Shown here in pieces: positions 43,324-63,162 of a DNA stretch of 64,000 nucleotides (position 1 is its first letter; each line of letters begins with the position of its first letter). Location of the stretch: positions 875,133 to 939,132 of the forward strand of contig NZ_KB913017.1 of the NCBI RefSeq assembly GCF_000383975.1, in the 5' to 3' direction. Made by a program: the position numbers and the translations under genes. The notes below the pieces were generated by a model, which saw only the letters and a program-made list of their open reading frames with translations, was not told the DNA's origin and did not search any database. Source of the stretch: Natronorubrum tibetense GA33. GTDB taxonomy: Archaea; Halobacteriota; Halobacteria; Halobacteriales; Natrialbaceae.

Positions 43324-45150
43324 ATGTCCGAGCTATCGGATCTAGAGAACGACGGATCATCACGACGCCAGATGCTTGCACTACTTGGCGGCACCGCAAC
43401 GGTCGGCCTCGCCGGCTGTTCAGCTCTCCTCGGCGATGACGACGACGACGACGACGAGGGCTGGAGCGATTTGGAAGTCAGTGAACACGCTGACAAGGCA
43501 CAGGCTGCCTGGGAAACGGTAGTCGACAACCCGAACCCGGACGATGAAGCCGTTCGAAACGAGGCCTACGTCGAGATCGAAGAAGCCGCCAGAGACGATA
43601 TGGTCCTCCTACCGCTGTATCACGAGCTCGAGGAGGTATTCTCCTACGATCACGTCGACGCTCCCGAAACCGGTTCGCTCGGTTTCTGGATGCAACAGCA
43701 CAACCACACTGAACTGGACGATAGTTCGGAGCTAAACCTTCTCAACTCCAGTTTCAACGAAATCGACCCGATCATGTCAACTGACACCGCCTCGGGTCGA
43801 GTTGTCAACCAGATCTACGAGACGCTGACCCACTACCCCGACGGTGTCGCTGAAGTCGAAAACCAGCTACTAGACGATTTCGAACTGTCCGATGACGGGC
43901 TGACGTACACGCTCGAACTCAAAGAGGGCGTCCAGTTCCACGGCGGCGAGGAGATGACCGCCGACGATGTCAAGTACTCGTGGCGGCGGATGGCCGAATC
44001 CGAGTACAGCGAACGGCGTAATTTCATGATCGCGACGCCGAACGGTCTCGGAATCGAGTACGAGGGCGAGCCCACCGACATCGAACCGGATTCTATCGCA
44101 GTCGACGTGATCGACGACTACACGCTCGAGGTCACTCTCCGCGAACCCAATCCGATGGCTCTCGAGATTCTCACGTACTCGGCGTTCGCCGTAATTCCCG
44201 AAGGGTACGTCGGCGACATCGAGGGCTACGACGGCGAGGTCGACCACGACGAGTTCCGGTCCGACCTTGCAAACGGGACTGGGCCGTTCGAGTACGACGA
44301 GTTCAACCCCGGCGAGGATATGCGTGTCGTTCGGTTCGACGATTACCACGGCGAGGTTGCGAGCATCGAGGCCATCCACTGGGCAGAGATCGAAGACGCA
44401 GAAGCCCAGTGGACGAACATCGTCGAGCAGAACCTGGACATCTTCGACATCCCGACGAGCCACTACGACCCTGATCTGGTTGATGCCGACGAAGACGATG
44501 CGGGTAACAGATCCGGCGAGTACGGGCCGATCGAGAACGACGAAACGCTCAACTACACCGCTTCTCCGCAGACAAGCACGTTCTACTTCGGGTTCAACGT
44601 CACGAACGTTCCCCGACCGGTCCGACGGGCGATTGCGCACGTGACCGACCACGAAGAACTCATCGAGGACATCTTCCTCGAGCGTGGCTCCCCAGCTTAC
44701 AGCTTTACTCCGCCGGGACTGTGGCCGACCGGCGACGACGGGTATCAGGACTGGATCGACGCATGGCCGTACGGCGTCGACGAAACCGACACCGAGTCCG
44801 CCGCGGAGGAACTCGAAGAGGCCGGCTTCACTGAGGACGATCCGTTCGAAATGACAGCGAGTACGTACGCTAGCTCCCCGACATTCGCGGATCTGGCCAA
44901 CCTGATCCGTGAGAAGCTCTCCGGCCTCGGCGTCGAGATCGACGTCGACGAAACGGAGTTCTCGACGCTCCAACAGGACGGCGAAGACGGTAACCTCGAT
45001 ATGTACTCGCTCGGCTGGACGTGGAGTTGGGTCGACCCAGCGTACGGGCACTTCGGCTTCGAGCCGAAGAACACTGATACGTCGCGGATGCCGACCGACG
45101 CAACCGGCTACTACCTCGACTGGCAGGAAAACCTCGACGACGAAGCCTAA
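43324..45150 (+). CDS. Peptide/nickel ABC transporter substrate-binding lipoprotein 1 (apparently circularly permuted SBP family 5)
   Basis: The 608-residue protein has a Tat-like SRRQMLALLGG signal and lipobox GLAGC, with Cys32 lipidated. Residues 50-125 (AQAAWETVVDNPNPDDEAVRNEAYVEIEEAARDDMVLLPLYHELEEVF) look like the usual C-terminal helices and final strand of SBP family 5. The usual N-terminal start (LNLLNSSFNEIDPIMSTDTA) follows at about 137. The chain ends at GYYLDWQENLDDEA, the point where a normal family member would continue into that C-terminal part. So the polypeptide order is permuted, with the new ends inside the C-lobe. It binds its substrate outside the cell and delivers it to the permeases at 45290 and 46342. 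Confidence 0.85.
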   Translation: MSELSDLENDGSSRRQMLALLGGTATVGLAGCSALLGDDDDDDDEGWSDLEVSEHADKAQAAWETVVDNPNPDDEAVRNEAYVEIEEAARDDMVLLPLYHELEEVFSYDHVDAPETGSLGFWMQQHNHTELDDSSELNLLNSSFNEIDPIMSTDTASGRVVNQIYETLTHYPDGVAEVENQLLDDFELSDDGLTYTLELKEGVQFHGGEEMTADDVKYSWRRMAESEYSERRNFMIATPNGLGIEYEGEPTDIEPDSIAVDVIDDYTLEVTLREPNPMALEILTYSAFAVIPEGYVGDIEGYDGEVDHDEFRSDLANGTGPFEYDEFNPGEDMRVVRFDDYHGEVASIEAIHWAEIEDAEAQWTNIVEQNLDIFDIPTSHYDPDLVDADEDDAGNRSGEYGPIENDETLNYTASPQTSTFYFGFNVTNVPRPVRRAIAHVTDHEELIEDIFLERGSPAYSFTPPGLWPTGDDGYQDWIDAWPYGVDETDTESAAEELEEAGFTEDDPFEMTASTYASSPTFADLANLIREKLSGLGVEIDVDETEFSTLQQDGEDGNLDMYSLGWTWSWVDPAYGHFGFEPKNTDTSRMPTDATGYYLDWQENLDDEA

Positions 45151-52450: not shown

Positions 52451-54379
52451 ATGGTCAGGAATACCAAACAATCACGGTCATCGATTAAGCGACGACGAGT
52501 TCTCCAAGGGATTGGTGCAGCAGGCGCAATCAGTATTTCCGGGTGTCTCGGCGGCGACGACAGCGATGCGCCGTTTGACATTCAACTCGAGGTTAACTCG
52601 GACAACGACGACCGCGTGCAGATGGTCGAACTGATCGCCTCGTCGCTCGAGGAGTCCGGATATTTCAATACGGAAATCGAGGACTACGAGTGGAACAACT
52701 ACATCGCTCGGGTCATGGATCCCGCATACGCAGAAGACGGCTACGTGCCGTGTATCGGCCTCTCGGGAACGTTCAACCCGGAGAGTTTCTGTCAGGCACT
52801 CCACCACAGCGAAAACCACGGCCAGTGTTGTAACCTAAACGGGATCGACGACCCCGAACTCGACGACATGCTGGACGACGCGCGATACGGTGTCGACGTC
52901 GTCGAAGACCCCGACCTCCGTCGCGAACGGTACGACGAGATCTGGGAGCGACTCGCCGAGGAGCGATACAGTTCCATCACGCACTTCGATCTCGACGCCG
53001 CCGTCATGAACACCGACGTTCACGGGTTCAACATGTTCCCGTTCAGCGAGAGCATCTTCGACTACGGGCTGTTCTCCCCACAGGACGAGCAGGTCATGTG
53101 GATGGACGAGGACGCCCACCCGGACGACACCGACCTGTCGGACCTCCAGGAAGGCGGCACGCTCCGAATCGGTGCCGCGGAGAACCCCGACTCGTTCGAC
53201 CCGCCGTACAGCACTGACACGACCTCGACGATGGCGCAGGTCTTCGTCTTCGAGCAGTTGCTCACGAGCGACCGGGACGGCAACCTCTACCCGTGGCTCG
53301 CCGAGAGCTACGAACTCGTCGACACGCAGGACATCGATCGGACCGACTACGAGGAGTACATGACCGAAGTCGACGTCGACGAGGAAGGTGCGCTCGACAC
53401 CGACGAACAAGTCATTGTCCAACACCCCGAGGACGATCCGGCAGACGGTTCCGTCCGCGTGCTGACGCCCGACGAGGCCGCTGCCGCCGTCGACGACGGC
53501 GTTTTCGGCATGCAGTTCCGCTACGAAATCCGTGAGGGCGTCGAGTTCCACAACGGCGAGGAGCTGACGGCCGAACACGTCGTCGCAACCGTCGAGCGCT
53601 ACGAGGGATCGGACCTCTCCGCACAGACGTTCGACTCGCTGCTTCACGCCCGGGAAGTCGACGAGTACACCGTCGACCTGTACGCACAGATTCCCGACGC
53701 GGAGGCGGAACGCGAACTGCCGGGACTGTACATCCACTCGCTGGAACAGGCTGACCTCGAGGGCGGCGACCTCGACCCCCGCGAAGACAACGACCCGATC
53801 GGCACCGGTCCGTACGTGTTCGAGGAGATCTCGGACGAACAGTACTTCGAGTACTCCCGCAACGAGGACTACTGGGTCAGCGAACTGGGCGTCGAACAGA
53901 TCGACTGGTTCGACGGATCGTCCGAGTTCCCAGATGGGCCCGTTATCGACGAACTCGAAGTGGAAGTCGTCCCGGACAACTCGACCCGATCCGGTGCCCT
54001 CCAGAGCGACGAGATCGACATCACCTACGGCCTCACCACGGACGACCTGGACGGCTACGACGACTCGGACGACTACGTCGTCGAATCCATCGAGGCGGGC
54101 GGCTACGAATACATCCAGTACCCGATGCACGTCGAACCGTGGGACGACGACCGACTCCGACGCGCCGTCAACCTCCTCGTTCCACGAGAGTCGATCGTCG
54201 AAAACGTTCTCAACGGCTGGGCACGTCCAGCGTGGACGGACATTCCCGAACTCGCCGAAGAGAACGGAACCGCAGACGCCGCCGCCCTCGAGGACAAAAT
54301 CCGACCGTACAACGAGTACGACCCCGAACGCGCCGAAGAACTGCTCGAGGAAGTTATCGAAGACCACGACCTCGACTAG
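52451..54379 (+). CDS. Peptide/nickel ABC transporter substrate-binding lipoprotein 2 (circularly permuted SBP family 5)
   Basis: The 642-residue protein has a Tat-like signal with KRRRVLQGIGAAGAI and lipobox ISISGC (Cys32). Residues 42-225 (FDIQLEVNSDNDDRVQMVEL, ARVMDPAYAEDGYVPCIGLS, FCQALHHSENHGQCCNL then EQVMWMDE) correspond to the usual C-terminal lobe of haloarchaeal SBP family 5. The usual N-terminal opening (GGTLRIGAAENPDSFDPPYS) begins at about residue 235. The chain ends at YDPERAEELLEEVIEDHDLD, which normally precedes the FDIQLEV strand. The order is thus permuted at a different point from SBP1. It feeds the permeases at 54472 and 55421. Confidence 0.87.
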   Translation: MVRNTKQSRSSIKRRRVLQGIGAAGAISISGCLGGDDSDAPFDIQLEVNSDNDDRVQMVELIASSLEESGYFNTEIEDYEWNNYIARVMDPAYAEDGYVPCIGLSGTFNPESFCQALHHSENHGQCCNLNGIDDPELDDMLDDARYGVDVVEDPDLRRERYDEIWERLAEERYSSITHFDLDAAVMNTDVHGFNMFPFSESIFDYGLFSPQDEQVMWMDEDAHPDDTDLSDLQEGGTLRIGAAENPDSFDPPYSTDTTSTMAQVFVFEQLLTSDRDGNLYPWLAESYELVDTQDIDRTDYEEYMTEVDVDEEGALDTDEQVIVQHPEDDPADGSVRVLTPDEAAAAVDDGVFGMQFRYEIREGVEFHNGEELTAEHVVATVERYEGSDLSAQTFDSLLHAREVDEYTVDLYAQIPDAEAERELPGLYIHSLEQADLEGGDLDPREDNDPIGTGPYVFEEISDEQYFEYSRNEDYWVSELGVEQIDWFDGSSEFPDGPVIDELEVEVVPDNSTRSGALQSDEIDITYGLTTDDLDGYDDSDDYVVESIEAGGYEYIQYPMHVEPWDDDRLRRAVNLLVPRESIVENVLNGWARPAWTDIPELAEENGTADAAALEDKIRPYNEYDPERAEELLEEVIEDHDLD

Positions 54380-54471: not shown

Positions 54472-55428
54472 ATGAGCTTACGACGTTTCATACTGAAGCG
54501 GATACTATCGATCATCCCGATTCTGTTCGGTGTCTCGCTAATTACGTTTGCACTCGTTCACCTCACACCTGGCGATCCGGTCGATCAGATGGTTGGGGTA
54601 AACCCGCACGTGACGCCGAGCGACGAGGCACAGCTCCGGGCCCGTTACGGGCTCGACCGACCACTGTGGGAGCAGTACGGAGTCTGGATGAGCAACGTAC
54701 TAACGGGGGATTTCGGTCAGGTTTACAGCAACGGCCGAGACGTCTCGGCAGTCATCATGATGCGCCTCCCCGAAACGATCGCACTCGGTATCTTCGGCTG
54801 GGCCTTCGGCCTCATAATCGCGATCCCAACCGGGATCTACGCGGCCGTCAAGAAGGGGGAACTCGCCGACGACGCGAGCCGATTTATCGCCCTTTCGGGA
54901 ATCTCGATCCCGAACTTCTGGCTCGGTCTGATGCTGATACTGATCGGAGCAATCACGCTCGGCCTCTGGCCCGTGCTTCCGCCCTCTCGACAGCCACTCT
55001 ATCACCCCCACATGTTGTGGTACCTAGTATTGCCGGGGATCACGATCGGGACGGCCGCCGCGGCCAGCATTATGCGCGTCATGCGCACCTCGATGGCTGA
55101 AGAGCTGAACAAGGAGTACGTGACCGCTGCTCGAGCCAAGGGACTTCCCGAGCGAACGGTGATACTCAAGCACGTCCTTCGTAACTCCCTCATCTCGGTG
55201 GTGACGCTCGCGGCTACCCTGACCGCGAGTATCGTCGCCGGATCGGTCGTCGTCGAGGTCGTGTTCAACTGGCCGGGACTCGGCAGAGAATTAATCGGCG
55301 CGATCAACGAGCGAGAGATCAACCTCATCATGGCGATCACGCTCTTTACGGGCGTGTTCATCATTATCGCGAACCTGATCGCCGATATCCTGTACGCGGT
55401 ACTCGATCCGAGGATCAGATATGACTAA
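54472..55428 (+). CDS. dppB: ABC transporter permease 2, DppB/OppB type
   Basis: The 318-residue permease has the N-terminal FILKRILSIIPILFGVSLITFALVHLTPGDPVDQMVG, the loop typical of OppB. The coupling loop is MAEELNKEYVTAARAKGLPERTVILKHVLRNSLISVV, and VVVEVVFNWPGLGRELIGA follows. The normal length, without extension, contrasts with the cluster-1 permease C. It lies 92 bases after the SBP gene and overlaps the C permease by eight bases. Confidence 0.93.
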   Translation: MSLRRFILKRILSIIPILFGVSLITFALVHLTPGDPVDQMVGVNPHVTPSDEAQLRARYGLDRPLWEQYGVWMSNVLTGDFGQVYSNGRDVSAVIMMRLPETIALGIFGWAFGLIIAIPTGIYAAVKKGELADDASRFIALSGISIPNFWLGLMLILIGAITLGLWPVLPPSRQPLYHPHMLWYLVLPGITIGTAAAASIMRVMRTSMAEELNKEYVTAARAKGLPERTVILKHVLRNSLISVVTLAATLTASIVAGSVVVEVVFNWPGLGRELIGAINEREINLIMAITLFTGVFIIIANLIADILYAVLDPRIRYD

Positions 55429-56473
55429 CGAGAGAGCAACATCTACGGAACGTGGTCGAATACGGATCTCCGGATTCGATCCCGAGCGTGTAACCGAACG
55501 AGAGCCGCTGTCGGACTGGACCGAAGACACCGGTGGCGAGACGCAGAGTCGATGGAAACGGGCATTCGTCCGGTTCAAGCGGAACCGAACGGCATTGATC
55601 GGCCTCTCCGTCGTCACCCTATTGACGCTGCTGACGGTGTTCGCACGTCCGATCGTGGTCATGGGAGTCACGGTACAACCGTTCGGCCTCGCGCCGCACG
55701 ACCCCGGGACGATCTTGTACATGCAGGACCCATCGATCAGTACCTGGGACTCCCCGTCGTGGGCCCACCCGATGGGCGTCGACGGCAATGGCCGTGATAT
55801 ATTCTCCCGCGTGCTCTACGGCGGACGATACAGTATTTCGATCGGCTTCGTCGTGGTCGCACTCACCGCGAGTTTCGGACTTATTTACGGCGCCATCTCG
55901 GGCTACTACGGCGGCTGGACCGACGAGATCATGATGCGCGTCGTCGACACGATCTACGCGTTCCCCGGTCTCATCCTCGCCCTGATCGTCGTCGCGACGC
56001 TCGGCCGTGGCTACTGGCAACTCGTACTCGCGTTTTCGCTGTTCGGCTGGGTTACCTACGGCCGTCTCATTCGCGGCGAAGTCCTGAAGATCAAAGAAAA
56101 CGAGTACGTGATGGCGGCAAAAGCCCTCGGTGCGCGAGATCGATCGATCATCTTCAGACACATCGCGCCGAACGCGATGCCGCCGCTAATCGTCCTCGCA
56201 TCGCTCAATATCGGCACCGTCGTTATCGGTGTCGCCGCACTCGGTTTCCTCGGACTCGGTATGCCGCCCGGATCGGCCGAGTGGGGTACCATGCTCGACC
56301 AGACTCGCGACACGCTCATCCAGCCACCCGGCGGATCGATCCCCTGGTGGGCGACAGTGTATCCCGGTGCAGCGATCTTCCTGTTCGTGATGGCCATGAA
56401 CATGATCGGTGACGGAATCAACGATGCACTCGACGCACAGGAAACCGGTGTCGAACAGCAGGGAGGTGCATAA
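55421..56473 (+). CDS. dppC: ABC transporter permease 2, DppC/OppC type
   Basis: The 350-residue permease has an N-terminal cytosolic extension (SDWTEDTGGETQSRWKRAFVRFKRN) and a first helix LIGLSVVTLLTLLTVFARPIV. The periplasmic DPSISTWDSPSWAHPMGVDGNGRDIFSRVLYGGRYS is typical of OppC. The coupling loop is LKIKENEYVMAAKALGARDRSIIFRHIAPNAMPPLIV, and the last part ends in GDGINDALDAQ. It shares the TAATG start/stop junction with dppD, so the four genes are translated together. Confidence 0.93.
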   Translation: MTNERATSTERGRIRISGFDPERVTEREPLSDWTEDTGGETQSRWKRAFVRFKRNRTALIGLSVVTLLTLLTVFARPIVVMGVTVQPFGLAPHDPGTILYMQDPSISTWDSPSWAHPMGVDGNGRDIFSRVLYGGRYSISIGFVVVALTASFGLIYGAISGYYGGWTDEIMMRVVDTIYAFPGLILALIVVATLGRGYWQLVLAFSLFGWVTYGRLIRGEVLKIKENEYVMAAKALGARDRSIIFRHIAPNAMPPLIVLASLNIGTVVIGVAALGFLGLGMPPGSAEWGTMLDQTRDTLIQPPGGSIPWWATVYPGAAIFLFVMAMNMIGDGINDALDAQETGVEQQGGA

Positions 56474-57549
56474 TGACGCTACTCGAAATAAACGATCTCA
56501 CGGTCAAGTTCTACACGCAGGAGGGAGTCGTTACCGCGGTCGACGAACTCTCTTACAGCATCGAACGCGGTGAAAAGTTCGGCGTCGTCGGCGAGAGCGG
56601 GGCTGGAAAGAGTGTCACCGCACTCTCGCTGATGCGCCTCATCGACAGTCCCGGACAGATCGAAAGCGGCGAGATCCTGTTCAAAGGCGAAGACCTCCTC
56701 GAGATGAGCAAATCGGAGATGCAGCGCATCCGGGGCAACGAGATCGCGATGGTCTTCCAGGACGCCCAGACCGCACTGAACCCGGTTTATCCCGTCGGCG
56801 AACAGATCGCCGAGGCGATCAGACATCACCTCGACTACGACGATCAGGAGGCTCGCGAACGGACCATTCAGTTACTGGATCGGGTCGGGATTCCGGAGGC
56901 AGAAGCCCGATACGACGACTATCCCCACGAGTTCTCCGGCGGCATGCAACAGCGCGCGATCATCGCGATGGCGCTGTCGTGCGACCCCGACCTGTTGGTC
57001 TGTGACGAGCCGACGACCGCACTCGACGTGACGATCGAGGCCCAGATCCTGGACGAACTCGAGGCGCTGGCCGACGACTTCGACACGGCGATCCAGCTTA
57101 TCACCCACGACCTCGGTGTCGTCGCTCAGGTTTGCGATCGCGTGATGGTGATGTACGCGGGAACGCCGGTGGAAAAGGCCTCCGTCGAGGAACTCTACTA
57201 CGATCCGAAACACCCCTACACCGTCGGACTGATGAGTTCGATTCCGCGGGTCGGCGACGACCGGGAACGGCTCCAGACCATCCCCGGAACGATGCCCGAC
57301 CTCGTGGAACTCCCACCAGGGTGTAGCTTCCACCCGCGCTGTCCGTACGCCGAAGAGTGTTGTACCCGGAAGGATCCGCCGTTGCTCGATCCGGAAACCG
57401 GTGCCTCGGCGACCAGCGACACGGAACATTCTGCCGCGTGTCTCGAGTACACCGGCGATCTCACCGGCGGCCTCGACTACGAGGTCACGGTCGACGAATC
57501 GGTACTCGAAGACGAAGCGCAGTACGCCGGACGTGATCACAATGTCTAA
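56473..57549 (+). CDS. dppD: ABC transporter ATP-binding protein 2, DppD/OppD type
   Basis: The 358-residue ATPase has Walker [14 protein letters not shown] (about 40-47), Q-loop Gln96, signature [16 protein letters not shown] and Walker [16 protein letters not shown]. The C-terminal oligopeptide domain has four Cys in [14 protein letters not shown] and CLEYTG. The Walker A to Q-loop spacing is normal, so it is the reference for the insertion in the cluster-1 paralogue. It overlaps the next ATPase by eight bases. Confidence 0.93.
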
Positions 57550-58918
57550 GCGAGACGAACCGATCCTGCGAACGGAGGGTCTGACGAAGTACTACGACAC
57601 GAGCGGCGGCTTCATCGACAGTCTGCTCGGCCACGGCCAACAGGTAAAGGCAGTCGACGGTATCGACCTCGAACTACTCGAGGGCGAGACCCTCGGCGTG
57701 GTCGGCGAGAGTGGCTGTGGAAAAACCACCCTCGGCCGAACCCTGCTGCAACTGATCGAGCCGACCGACGGATCGGTCTACTACCGAGGGCACACCGACT
57801 CGGACGGCGACGAAATCGATCTGGCCGAGTGTTCGAGTTCGGAACTCCGTGACCTTCGTACCGACCTTCAGTACATCTTCCAGGATCCGTTCTCGAGTCT
57901 CAACCCGCGACTGACCGTCGGTGACATCATCGGCGAGCCCCTCGACATTCACGACATCGCCGAGGGCGAGGAACGGACGGAGCGCATCTACGAACTCCTC
58001 GAGACCGTCGGCTTGAACCCGAGCCACACCCACCGATACCCACACGAGTTCTCCGGCGGCCAGCGCCAGCGGATCGGGATCGCACGTGCGCTCGCGGTCG
58101 ATCCGGAAATCATCGTCTGCGACGAACCGGTGAGTGCACTCGACGTTTCGGTCCAGGCCCAGATCCTCAATCTGCTCGAGGACTTACAGGAGGAGTTCGG
58201 CCTGTCGTACATCTTCATCGCCCACGATCTGAGCGTCGTCGAACACATCTCTGACCGGATTGCCGTCATGTATCTCGGCGAGTTCGCCGAGGTCGGCACC
58301 ACCGAAGAGGTGTTTTCGCCGCCCCATCATCCGTACACGGAGGCGCTGCTCTCGGCGATTCCCGAACCGGACCCGCTCTGGGAGGGCGACCAAATCTTCC
58401 TCTCCGGGACGGTCCCCTCGCCGATCGATCCACCGTCGGGCTGTCGATTCCACACTCGGTGTCCCAGCGTCATCCAGCCGGCGGAGTACGACCTCGAGCA
58501 GCCGGTTTGGCGATCCATCATGGATCTGAAACTGCGGGTCAAGGATGCCGAATCGGTCGATTCGATCGTCGTCCTCGAGAACGACGACGGGACCGACGAC
58601 GAACCGGTCCGAGTGGGCGACCTGTCTCGAGACGAGTTCGGCGCCCAGCTCAGGGCGGAGTTCGACCTGCCGCGACCGATCGCGGACCCCGACGCCGAGC
58701 GAACGCTCTCGACGGTAATCGACGACCTCGTCGCCGGGGAGCTCGACGACGCCCGAACGGCCCTCGAAGACGCGTTCACCTCGCCCTGTGAGGTCCACGA
58801 CCCAGAACAGGTCCCCACCGGGAAGACCCACCGAATATCGTGTCTGCTCTACGACGAGCGATACGACGACGAACGGACGAGATTCGGTGGCCCGAGCGAC
58901 GCCGTCGCCGACGACTGA
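57542..58918 (+). CDS. dppF: ABC transporter ATP-binding protein 2, DppF/OppF type
   Basis: The 458-residue ATPase has Walker [18 protein letters not shown], signature [18 protein letters not shown], Walker [18 protein letters not shown] and the H-loop [12 protein letters not shown]. As in cluster 1, the C-terminal [12 protein letters not shown] pair (near 300) is separated from the last Cys pair (SPCEVHD, ISCLLYD) by an added region of about 110 residues ([18 protein letters not shown]...). ATG 57542 is chosen because the ATPase domain begins right after it; a farther in-frame start at 57401 lies inside dppD and is spurious. Confidence 0.92.
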
Positions 58919-58979: not shown

Positions 58980-59528
58980 ATGCGCCGGATCTACGAATCT
59001 GGAGCCATTCGCCGCGACGAAGGTCCCTTCAGTCCGTCCGAAAAGGACACCGAACGCCGCATCGAAGCGATGCGATCGATAAACTCGAGCAAACTGAGTC
59101 GACTCCTCTTACCGAACGGGCTGAGTCGTCGTGCGATCTCGATCGACGTCTCGACGCCTCGAGACGAGTATCCGCTCGACGTCGCGATTCCGTTTCGGGT
59201 GACGATGCGAAACTCGATGCCGTTTCCGATCACGATTCCGACGCGGTCGCCGCTGTTGTGGACCTGGGACATCGACGGCATGACGGATGCGGCACACGTT
59301 CCGCTCCACGACCCGCCGGACGAAACCGACTCGCTGGTGTTCGATCGCGGCGAGCGAAAGCAGTTCACGAAGCGGTGGCAGCAACTGTTTCGCGTCTCCG
59401 ACAGCGAGTGGGAGCCCGCCGAACCCGGCGAGTACACGATCGGTGCCGAACTCAACGTGGAGAACGCAGTCGAGAAGGGGCTTCGCGGCGAGACGACGGT
59501 TCGTCTCGATCCGGAGACGGACGCGTAA
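58980..59528 (+). CDS. Beta-rich protein at the end of transporter cluster 2 (BsuPI-like fold possible)
   Basis: The 182-residue protein has a basic N-terminus (MRRIYESGAIRRDEG, INSSKLSRLLLPNGLSRR). A beta-rich part, AISIDVSTPRDEYPLDVAIPF, follows with motifs PFPITIPTRSPLLWTWDIDG and PGEYTIGAELNVENA. The order resembles the intracellular proteinase-inhibitor (BsuPI) type of Ig-like fold, but I cannot confirm this. It has its own start 61 bases after dppF and no signal sequence. Its function in transport is unknown. Confidence 0.6.
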   Translation: MRRIYESGAIRRDEGPFSPSEKDTERRIEAMRSINSSKLSRLLLPNGLSRRAISIDVSTPRDEYPLDVAIPFRVTMRNSMPFPITIPTRSPLLWTWDIDGMTDAAHVPLHDPPDETDSLVFDRGERKQFTKRWQQLFRVSDSEWEPAEPGEYTIGAELNVENAVEKGLRGETTVRLDPETDA

Positions 59529-59560: not shown

Positions 59561-60895
59561 CTATCGTACCCAGGACCGAGGCTCGGCCTCAATCGCCGGG
59601 TCGTAACGGTGACAGCACACCGAGTGACCCGGTTCGCGTTCCGTATCCGTCGGCGTTTGTCGCTCACAAACGGTCGGAACCGTCTCGCTGAGACGGTCAC
59701 GAGCGGCCTGCAGATCTCCCGTGATCAGCGCCGATATCGCCTCGTTGACACCTCGATCAACGGTTTCGTCCTGCAGTGTCGCGGGGAGATCGAACCGGTC
59801 TCGAACCGTCGCGTCATCGAGTTCGCCATCGGCCGTTTCGACGGCGATCGATTCGGGCAACTCGCCAGCCTGGAGGGTGAAGCGAAACGCGACGACCACC
59901 ATCCACTGGTCCCAGGGAAGTTCCACGCTCTCCGGCGGAACAATCTCCGGACAGCGCGTGTGAAACCGACAGCCCGACGGCGGGTCGGCGGGATCCGGCA
60001 CGGTGTCGGTTAGCGGCCGTTCGAACTGCTGGTCCGTCGGGTCGAGACTCGGGACGGAGCCGAGCAGCAGCCGCGTGTACGGGTGTGCAGGGAACTCGAG
60101 GACGTTCTCGATCGGTCCGCGTTCGACGACTTCGCCGAGATACATCACGGCGACGCGGTCACAGAACCGGCGGACGACGTCGATATCGTGGCTGATGAAC
60201 AGGATAGAGATGTCGAACTCCCGTCGAACGTCGTCGAGCAGTGCGAGGACGTCCGACTGGACTCGGCCGTCAAGCGCGCTCGTCGGCTCGTCTGCGACGA
60301 TCAGATCCGGGTTGAGGACGAGCGCCCGCGCGATCGAGAGTCGCTGTTTTTCGCCGCCGGAAAACTCGTGCGGATAGCGATCCGCATCCGGCGCCGACAG
60401 TCCGACTCGCTCGAGGAGATCTTCGACGATCGCTCGGCGGCGGTCAGCATCCGTCATCCCGTGGAGCAAGAGCGGCTCGGCGACCGCCTCGCCAATCGTC
60501 ATTCGCGGGTTGAACGCCTCGTTCGGGTCCTGGACGACGAGTTGGGCTCGGCGGCGGAACGCTTGGAGCGCCGCGCCCGACAGCTCGCTCACGGGCTCCC
60601 CGTCGAACCTGATTTCACCACCGGTCGGCTCCTCGAGTCCGAGGACGGAGTGTGCGGTCGTGGTCTTGCCGCTGCCCGATTCGCCGACGAGGCCGAACGT
60701 TTCACCCCGTGTGATATCGAAACTCACGCCGTCGACAGCCCGGACGCGACCGACCTCGCGTCTGAGCAGCCCTTTCGTGATCGGGTAATGAACGTCGAGG
60801 GCCTCGACCTCGAGCAACGGTGGGGCATTTGACTCCGTCTCCGTTTCGCCATCCTGCCGACCCTCCTCGTTGGAACCGGTCTCCGGCCCGATCAT
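59561..60895 (-). CDS. dppF: ABC transporter ATP-binding protein 3, DppF/OppF type
   Basis: The 444-residue ATPase has Walker [20 protein letters not shown], signature [18 protein letters not shown], Walker [17 protein letters not shown] and H-loop [13 protein letters not shown]. The C-terminal Cys arrangement again has a long insertion: [14 protein letters not shown], then a block of about 90 residues, then VCERQT and [11 protein letters not shown] 60895 overlaps the preceding gene's TGA by four bases, fixing the start. The upstream frame extension to 60931 is inside dppD. Confidence 0.92.
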
Positions 60896-61959
60896 TTTTG
60901 CCCCTCCGAGAGCAGCCGCATATCCTGCCAATCGTCTAGGATCGGTTCCGGATTACCCCCGGGTCCGAAGTGGACGCACGAGACGGCGTGGTGTTCCCGC
61001 TCGTCGACGGCGGCGAACGTCGGCTGGTCGGAACCGGCACACCCGTCGACGGCGTGTGGACACTCGGCTCTGAACCGACAGCCGTCGGTCGGAATCTCCC
61101 CTCGAGCCGAGCGATTCGCCCGTCGCGAGAGGCCGTCGTAACTATCGAGCAGCGCCTGCGTATAGGGATGAGACGGCTGGCTGAGAAGCTGTTCGGTCGT
61201 GGCGCGTTCGACGATTGTGCCGCCGAACATCACCAGTACCCGGTCCGCGAGCGCGGCGACGACGCGCAGATCGTGCGTGATACAGAGGATCGACATGCCG
61301 TCGTCGGTCAGTTGCTGGAGCAGTTCGATCAACCGGGCCTGGACGGTGACGTCGACGGCCGTCGTCGGTTCGTCGGCGATCAACAGGTCGGGATCGGCTG
61401 CCAGTGCGATCGCGATCGCGATCCGCTGGCGCTGGCCGCCGGAGAACTCGTGTGGATAGTCGTCGATCCGCGCGGACGCTCGCGGGATGCCGACCGCTCG
61501 GAACCGCTCGATGGCACGCTCGCGGGCGGCCGCGTCGGAGATCTCCTCGTGGATCGCGATCGCCTCGACGAACTGGTCGCCGACCGTACAGACGGGATCC
61601 AGTGCACTCTGTGGGTTCTGAAAGACGTGTGCGATGCGGTCGCCGCGGATCGAACGAAGCGCCGACTCGTCCGCGTCGAGGAGTCTGTGGCCGTCGAACT
61701 CAACCGTCCCGTCGACTATTTTGGCCGGCGGCTGCTGGATGATTCCGGTCAGCGATTCGCACGTGACGCTCTTGCCGCTGCCGGATTCGCCGACGAGACA
61801 CACCGTCTCACCACGGTCGACGGTGAAACTCACGCCGTCGACGGCGTGGACGGTCTCGCGCTCGGTTCGAATTCGCGTTCGAAGGTTCTCGACGGTCAGG
61901 AGCGGCGTCGCTCCGGACCGATCGTCTGCCGTCGTCGTGGAGTCGTGTTCTGTCGTCAT
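60892..61959 (-). CDS. dppD: ABC transporter ATP-binding protein 3, DppD/OppD type
   Basis: The 355-residue ATPase has Walker [19 protein letters not shown], a normal-length spacing to the Q-loop (HVFQNPQSALDPVC), signature [16 protein letters not shown] and Walker B LLIADEPTTAVDVTVQ. The H-loop is CITHDLRVVA, and the short C-terminal oligopeptide region has CRFRAECPHAVDGC and VSCVHFG. In this cluster the insertion seen in the cluster-1 D subunit is absent. It lies ten bases after the C permease on the same strand. Confidence 0.92.
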   Translation of the reverse strand: MTTEHDSTTTADDRSGATPLLTVENLRTRIRTERETVHAVDGVSFTVDRGETVCLVGESGSGKSVTCESLTGIIQQPPAKIVDGTVEFDGHRLLDADESALRSIRGDRIAHVFQNPQSALDPVCTVGDQFVEAIAIHEEISDAAARERAIERFRAVGIPRASARIDDYPHEFSGGQRQRIAIAIALAADPDLLIADEPTTAVDVTVQARLIELLQQLTDDGMSILCITHDLRVVAALADRVLVMFGGTIVERATTEQLLSQPSHPYTQALLDSYDGLSRRANRSARGEIPTDGCRFRAECPHAVDGCAGSDQPTFAAVDEREHHAVSCVHFGPGGNPEPILDDWQDMRLLSEGQK

Positions 61960-61968
61960 CGATCGTGT

Positions 61969-63162
61969 TCAGTGGTTGCGACGCGGGTCGAGCGCATCTC
62001 GGAGCCCGTCGCCGACGAGTTTGAGCGAGACGACCGTCAGCGTGAGTGCGACCGCGGGGAACGTCGAGACCCACCAGATTTCGTGAGGCTCCATCACGAG
62101 ACCGACGCCGGTCATCGCTGGGTCGAGTCCCTCCTGAATCGTCGACCCCCACGAGTAGAGCTCGAGGTGGTGAAAGCCGAGGAACGCGACGCCGGCTTCG
62201 ACGAGGACCAGCAGTGCGAGGAGGTGGAAGATTGCCGGGACGAGCGTATTCGTAATGTTCGGGACGATGTGTCGTTTCGCGACATAAGACGGCGAGGCAC
62301 CGAGACTTCGAGCGACGAGCACGTGGCCGTCTTCCCGTCGCTGGAGCGTCTCGCTTCTGACGAGTCGGGCGATACCGCCCCAGCTAAACAGCCCGAACAT
62401 GACTAACAATAACAGCAGCGAAACGTTCCAGTACATGTACCCGATAAAAAAGACGACAACCGCAGGAATGCAGAGTTGCACGTCGACGTAGCTCATCAGC
62501 AGATCGTCGACGCGTCCGCCACGGAACCCTGAAACGATCCCGACGGTCGCAGCGAGTGGGACGACGAACGCGGCCGTAAAGACCAGCACGTACAGCGTCG
62601 TCTGTGCGCCTTCGATGATGAGGTGTCCCATCGGGTGCCCGCGATGGTTCGTTCCGAGCGGGTACGTCATCGTTCCGTCACAGTGGCGAGTGATTCCCTC
62701 GCCGTCGGTCACCTCGCCGAGACACTCGGCGCTCCACGACGCCTCCGCGGTAAACCCGTACGGTGCGTGAAACCGGTGTTGAAACATGAGCTCCGGAGAG
62801 CCGACGACGGCCGGGCCGACAACGGCGACGAGCGAGAGAATGCCGAGAAAGACGGCCCCAACAGCGTGGGCTGGCCGAGAGACAAGCCGATACAGCACAC
62901 GTCGGGTCAGCTCGCGCCGTCGGACGGCGGGAACGACTACTACCGAAGTCAGCACGACGACGCCGAGTAAGATCACCCAGTCGATACGCCCGAAGTAAAC
63001 GCCGAGCGGAGCCATGTCGACCAGTTGGAAGAGGTAGAGACCTACGAGAAACACTACTCCTACGAAGAACACCGCTCTGGTCGGCGTAACGAACCGCCTC
63101 GAGTGACCGACTTCGTTCCAGTCGACCTGTTCGAAGCGGTGGGGTCCGGGAGACGCTCCCAT
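61969..63162 (-). CDS. dppC: ABC transporter permease 3, DppC/OppC type
   Basis: The 397-residue permease has an N-terminal extension with two extra helices (FFVGVVFLVGLYLFQLVDM and WVILLGVVVLTSVVVV). A large external loop (SPELMFQHRFHAPYGFTAEASWS, with Cys residues in CLGEVTDGEGITRHC that may form a disulfide) lies before GTNHRGHPMGHLIIEGAQTTLY. The coupling loop is LQRREDGHVLVARSLGASPSYVAKRHIVPNITNTL, and it ends in LVGDGLRDALDP. The divergent B permease begins 282 bases away, an unusual split of B and C. Confidence 0.9.
   Translation of the reverse strand: MGASPGPHRFEQVDWNEVGHSRRFVTPTRAVFFVGVVFLVGLYLFQLVDMAPLGVYFGRIDWVILLGVVVLTSVVVVPAVRRRELTRRVLYRLVSRPAHAVGAVFLGILSLVAVVGPAVVGSPELMFQHRFHAPYGFTAEASWSAECLGEVTDGEGITRHCDGTMTYPLGTNHRGHPMGHLIIEGAQTTLYVLVFTAAFVVPLAATVGIVSGFRGGRVDDLLMSYVDVQLCIPAVVVFFIGYMYWNVSLLLLLVMFGLFSWGGIARLVRSETLQRREDGHVLVARSLGASPSYVAKRHIVPNITNTLVPAIFHLLALLVLVEAGVAFLGFHHLELYSWGSTIQEGLDPAMTGVGLVMEPHEIWWVSTFPAVALTLTVVSLKLVGDGLRDALDPRRNH

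Follow-up and report, generated by a model that had tools for sequence, protein, structure and literature searches.

The question raised by this locus is whether SBP2, a solute-binding protein encoded in the haloarchaeon Natronorubrum tibetense GA33, is, as a first-pass annotation had claimed, a genuine circularly permuted member of solute-binding protein family 5, and what the order of its chain means for the transporter encoded behind it. The window, that is, the whole stretch of DNA analyzed, comprised 64,000 nucleotides (assembly GCF_000383975.1, contig NZ_KB913017.1, positions 875,133-939,132 of the forward strand), and its relevant features are collected in Table 1.

SBP_bac_5 (PF00496) was the only Pfam-A match of SBP2, with 192.8 bits against a cut-off of 32.4, and residues 353-634 were aligned to positions 16-275 of the profile. 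When residues 42-225 were scanned alone, the C-terminal region of the same profile was matched (positions 290-336, E 0.007, matched residues ~44-90). The canonical chain order was therefore not found in SBP2, since profile positions 290-336 lie upstream of 16-275 within one ORF. Two out-of-order segments of PF00496 (16-300 and 288-336) were also detected within this ORF in a scan of its own genome. Additionally, a profile of the C-terminal portion built from ten orthologues matched GbpA (3m8u, residues 353-500, E 7e-5) and DppA (1dpp, residues 360-496, E 6e-4), and the rest of the chain, within the permuted-order profile, matched residues 11-347 of 1dpp. Membership in family 5 was further indicated by a predicted export signal and membrane anchor (Tat motif and lipobox), and by the Dpp/Opp-type permeases and ATPases linked to SBP2.

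The comparison with orthologues gave the same picture. The blocks 41-226 and 229-642 each produced one alignment to canonical orthologues, in reversed order, and in ordinary members the former makes up the final ~180 residues. In L043, an orthologue of ordinary order, the two blocks are 62% and 65% identical to those of SBP2 and are carried the other way round. Since canonical orthologues at 59-70% identity carry both blocks once and in the opposite order, the permutation of SBP2 is not due to chance. Rotation of the SBP2 blocks reproduced the canonical orthologues, and the rotated sequences could be aligned and yielded a largely resolved tree. In canonical orthologues the ELLEE helix runs straight into a P-x-x-V-x-L-E strand; the chain of SBP2 ends with this helix and about ten further residues, with no usual C-lobe sequence after residue 600, and is cut between the helix and the next strand. 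Joining its ends would thus restore the canonical order, as had been proposed. At the new junction, the old C-terminal tail is fused to the old post-lipobox linker (~MDEDAHPDDTDLSDLQ), which precedes the usual N-terminal start GGTLRIG (residue ~234). The signal, read by eye as RRR...ISGC, has Cys32 as its predicted lipid-bearing cysteine and is followed by the C-terminal portion, so the anchor is placed on the new N-terminus, again as annotated; homologous signal peptides also precede the canonical-order orthologues. Pfam, PDB-sequence and orthologue comparisons agree on both the permutation and the position of the cut, and SBP2 was confirmed, at the level of sequence, as a true circular permutant of family 5.

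Table 1. Window positions of SBP1, SBP2, their parts and the transporter genes behind SBP2.
Feature	Position	Strand	Basis
SBP1, second circular permutant, 615 aa	43303..45150	+	order T-N-M vs N-M-T in L118; Pfam
SBP1 transposed C-tail, residues 55-142	43465..43728	+	block comparison with L118
SBP2, circularly permuted family-5 solute-binding lipoprotein, 642 aa, ATG start	52451..54379	+	Pfam segments out of order; orthologues in both orders
SBP2 predicted Tat signal peptide and lipobox, residues 1-32	52451..52546	+	read in sequence RRRVLQGIGAAGAISISGC
SBP2 transposed C-terminal portion, residues 41-226	52571..53128	+	Pfam; 3m8u/1dpp profile matches; canonical orthologues
SBP2 new junction, about residues 219-234	53105..53152	+	MWMDEDAHPDDTDLSDLQEGG vs canonical termini
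SBP2 usual N-terminal and middle portion, residues 229-642	53135..54376	+	Pfam; model superposition on 1dpp
SBP2 new C-terminus, ELLEE helix, residues 623-642 (cut point)	54317..54376	+	canonical orthologues continue past helix
ABC permease, DppB/OppB type	54472..55428	+	NCBIfam; directly behind SBP2 orthologues of every order
ABC permease, DppC/OppC type	55421..56473	+	NCBIfam; conserved neighbour
ATPase, DppD/OppD type	56473..57549	+	NCBIfam; conserved neighbour
ATPase, DppF/OppF type, start chosen at MSKRDEP (ORF open from 57401)	57542..58918	+	NCBIfam; conserved neighbour

A misassembly, which can produce a rearranged gene, an annotation artefact or a chance resemblance has nothing in its favour and next to no probability, because the same order and its conserved junctions recur in dozens of independently sequenced genomes, in which the permuted genes are under purifying selection and block identities range roughly from 46 to 96%. 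The orthologues likewise refute an unrelated domain that replaced a lost part of the C-terminal lobe, that is, a fusion without permutation: the score of the N-terminal block in SBP2 alone is weak (E 0.007), but the same block is 59-65% identical and forms the ordinary C-terminal end in canonical orthologues, and its profile matches the C-terminal region of the DppA and GbpA structures.

The structure predicted by AlphaFold2 from 24 permuted orthologues (pLDDT 73.5, pTM 0.77) was one reasonably confident fold, with pLDDT under 50 in parts of model residues 1-201 (model numbering starts at residue 33 of SBP2). Model residues 202-610 were superposed by VIA-align on residues 1-345 of 1dpp (Z 20.6, rmsd 4.4, 316 aligned). 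Residues 1-201 of the model were left unmatched, the expected outcome for a permutant in a sequential alignment, and their packing is not fixed by that alignment; this sequential comparison and those with Foldseek are blind to the permutation itself. A canonical-order control reached a pLDDT of 42, its alignment depth being too low.

The order found in SBP2 is frequent among its relatives. Among 38 named haloarchaeal orthologues, 30 have the SBP2 order, six are canonical (L086, L089, L093, L094, L096, and L098), one (L106) is cut elsewhere, inside a family-specific loop ahead of the FHNG motif, and one (L085) is truncated by its contig. In another genome set, the SBP2 order was observed in L040, L041, L042, L044, and L046, while L043, L045, L047, L048, L051, and L052 have the ordinary order, each block giving a single alignment. 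Because some species occur in both sets (L040/L069, L041/L075, L046/L100, and L049/L106), the 38 named loci provide the better count.

Canonical and permuted members were interleaved in the maximum-likelihood tree of the rotated sequences, and AU tests on groups named before the tree was built rejected a single clade for the permuted (p 5e-5) as well as for the canonical members (p 1e-5). The permuted L084 and the canonical L089 were sisters with full support, and this pair was recovered on an independent tree of permeases and ATPases. Their signal peptides are near-identical though the chain order behind them differs, which fits re-cutting in place. The dN/dS values among permuted SBP2 orthologues (0.11-0.23) denote purifying selection, so the permuted genes are being maintained. 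These analyses show more than one switch of chain order in the SBP2 family.

The transporter genes, by contrast with the chain order, hardly vary. Whatever their order, SBP2 orthologues are followed immediately by the same permease genes and, with few exceptions, by the same ATPase genes, and the DppB-type permease is 79-86% identical to that of the window in canonical loci as well. The exceptions were L103, with no ATPases detected in reach, and L105, with ATPases inverted and further off; the L095 locus ends at a contig edge. These conserved partners argue against a radical change of SBP2 function. The genes of the SBP2 operon were classified by NCBIfam as Dpp/Opp/Nik-type, below every equivalog cut-off, and no substrate was therefore assigned to the transporter.

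Behind this operon, an ORF at 58980-59528 (182 aa) gave no NCBIfam match; by eye it seems to resemble BsuPI-type proteinase inhibitors. A third Dpp/Opp-type set comes next: a permease and two ATPases occupy 59561-63162 on the minus strand, and a second, divergent permease, beyond 63433 on the plus strand, runs on past the edge of the window. No family-5 SBP was found near this set within about 5 kb outside the window, and it may borrow SBP1 or SBP2.

SBP1 is cut differently from SBP2, the last ~88 residues of the usual order having been moved to the N-terminus, and its residues 184-581 were aligned to positions 1-355 of PF00496. Its canonical orthologue L118 is 53-59% identical per block. Four chain orders were found in the SBP1 family: that of L118; that of SBP1, in six rows of the comparison (SBP1 of the window and L113-L117); a cut near the SBP2 site, ahead of the helix (L128-L130); and a cut in the N-terminal half (L131). 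Half of the family-5 SBPs in the genome of N. tibetense (6 of 12) are permuted, five with the SBP2-type order (SBP2 and four paralogues, each with out-of-order Pfam segments in one ORF) plus SBP1. Two permuted family-5 SBPs stand in tandem elsewhere in this genome (L031:7820-9625 and L031:10552-12393, at C1:754816-759392, minus strand), and adjacent pairs of permuted-profile matches like these recur in many haloarchaeal genomes.

Moreover, ten other haloarchaeal genomes, which were picked for diversity and not at random, gave 97 main matches, of which at least 22, from nine of the genomes, had the C-terminal segment upstream in the same ORF (a hand count and lower bound). By a further hand count, at least 64 of 145 haloarchaeal genomes contain a match that spans the permuted-order profile from one end to the other. 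Beyond the haloarchaea, permuted members were detected in four genomes, all from a single family within this phylum. In the permuted archaeal L110, residues 229-518 matched 61-368 of Yersinia DppA (5f1q) and residues 35-183 matched 373-524. When bacterial plasmids were compared with L110, the best 30 records were all two-piece matches, as canonical targets give, which is a weak negative for bacteria. One family-5 permutant of that single non-haloarchaeal family, which is not halophilic (L107:4730-6472, minus strand), has no visible lipobox and a PGF-CTERM end, and its permuted C-terminus would therefore be the tether.

Altogether, five cut positions were recognized: one behind the helix, as in SBP2, one ahead of it (L053-L057 and L128-L130), and three that, in terms of PF00496, fall near positions 355 (SBP1), 1-16 (L106), and 60 (L131). 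The N-terminal-half cuts of L106:6765-8765 and L131:1110-2975 belong to different families, each with a Tat/lipobox signal at the new start. Family-5 SBPs have thus been permuted several times in archaea, at five or so sites, and both orders persist among orthologues in the same operon. The permutation of SBP1, the permuted half of the genome's family-5 SBPs and these repeated changes of order had all escaped the first-pass annotation. SBP2 is very probably a working natural permutant of family 5 that feeds its Dpp/Opp importer, one instance of a type of event that recurs in archaea.

The most likely origin of SBP2 is duplication, fusion and trimming. A canonical SBP gene would have been duplicated in tandem and the two copies fused in frame; the front of the first copy would then have been deleted behind its retained signal peptide, and the end of the second copy lost. 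The old C-terminus would in this way have been joined to the old N-terminus through an acidic linker of ~16 residues, and the anchor, which normally sits at the start of the fold, would have come to lie at a strand of the C-terminal portion. We infer this route, given that no duplicated intermediates or leftover partial copies were found beside the SBP2 orthologues. The results support that the fold and the permease partnership were kept, and an altered tethering from the moved anchor, as suggested in the first-pass annotation, is a reasonable expectation; a change in lobe motion was suggested there as well and might occur.

Whether such a tether was the target of selection is another matter. 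If the permutation were adaptive, the anchor on another lobe, with a shorter tether and changed docking or opening, would have been selected repeatedly among membrane-anchored SBPs. A lipobox is seen at the new N-terminus in all of the haloarchaeal cases read, the cuts recur at similar sites, and the median distance from the cysteine to the first strand is 12.5 residues in permuted proteins against 34 in canonical ones, different strands being measured in the two; an anchoring rationale was also proposed by the authors of the TpMglB-2 study (PMC4990184). However, both orders are retained at the same position of the operon, beside conserved permeases, the permuted archaeal relative with a PGF-CTERM end is anchored C-terminally instead, and the several unrelated cut sites, the N-terminal half included, fit tolerance better than one optimum. 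Adaptation is thus regarded as unlikely. We favour a chain order that is near-neutral rather than advantageous, since the transporter partners are constant.

A better case can be made for one ancient permutation in the SBP2 family from which certain lineages later went back to canonical order, recombination with a canonical copy being one possible route. A junction 16-19 residues long, with a DLSDL-EGG-like motif at its end, is common to the permuted members, five canonical members (L093/L094/L096/L098/L045) form a clade nested within permuted sequences, and L089 and L093 keep, at the rejoined loop, the FP typical of the permuted N-terminus. Nevertheless, a DxxDLQEGG linker is present in canonical proteins too, so the junction is not diagnostic, and its common length and motif are compatible either with repeated gains or with one gain plus reversions; the root of the tree and several key forks are left open, and parsimony does not separate gain from loss. 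A single gain with reversions is accordingly a serious candidate, if a little short of an even chance, and it concerns only the direction of the switches, being compatible with SBP2 as a working natural permutant. More tentatively, archaeal family-5 SBPs might have been re-cut in place, at no fewer than five sites and with genuine reversions, perhaps under some selection on the tether site, while slot, signal and transporter remained constant. If this were true, circular permutation would count among the ordinary ways in which a protein family varies and would not be a rare accident.

As a rule, a natural circular permutation is a single, deep event that is recognized from distant homologues. 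In the SBP2 family, chain order differs between orthologues that are still 60-70% identical and share operon and transporter, and these provide a natural experiment on chain order, folding route and anchor position in a two-lobed binding protein. Since relatives with the same transporter carry normal or other orders, repeated re-cutting is indicated and its effect on transport is now testable. Permuted SBPs are common in haloarchaea and can pass as ordinary ones in annotation, so that only a part of each such protein is scored by domain searches and by sequential comparison of structures. OpuAC/ProX might be a further natural precedent among SBPs; permutation was not mentioned in the OpuAC/ProX paper checked. 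Natural permutation of a family-5 protein was nowhere reported in the literature searched, which left out most subscription journals, and none of the family-5 PDB chains inspected has a permuted order.

The closest known relatives of SBP2 are the peptide-type SBPs of cluster C (DppA 1dpp, AppA 1xoc, and GbpA 3m8u), with which it has PF00496, the fold elements and the B/C/D/F partners in common, and, with the Gram-positive and archaeal members, the lipoprotein signal. SBP2 differs from them in its rotated chain, cut between the equivalents of about residues 347 and 353-360 of DppA. TpMglB-2 (Tp0684), a glucose-binding lipoprotein assigned to "cluster Bc", is also a membrane-anchored SBP with a naturally permuted chain, and it binds its ligand and changes conformation, so permuted SBPs can work (PMC4990184). 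SBP2 does not belong to this cluster, PF00496 being its sole Pfam-A match. TpMglB-2 is a type I sugar-binding protein of cluster B in which strands of the N-lobe were moved to the C-terminus, in one deep rearrangement whose moved part is poorly conserved (PMC4990184), and the question of whether order or anchor matters was left open for it. Engineered permuted periplasmic binding proteins demonstrate that binding-protein folds tolerate permutation, but these are designed and belong to other SBP clusters (PMC9815098); the natural junctions described here could guide the design of biosensors. As one precedent is known in cluster B and reports on family 5 were not found, the new part would be the natural permutants of cluster C, with repeated switching at multiple sites: unlike TpMglB-2, the SBP2 family contains close orthologues that differ in order, and several cut sites.
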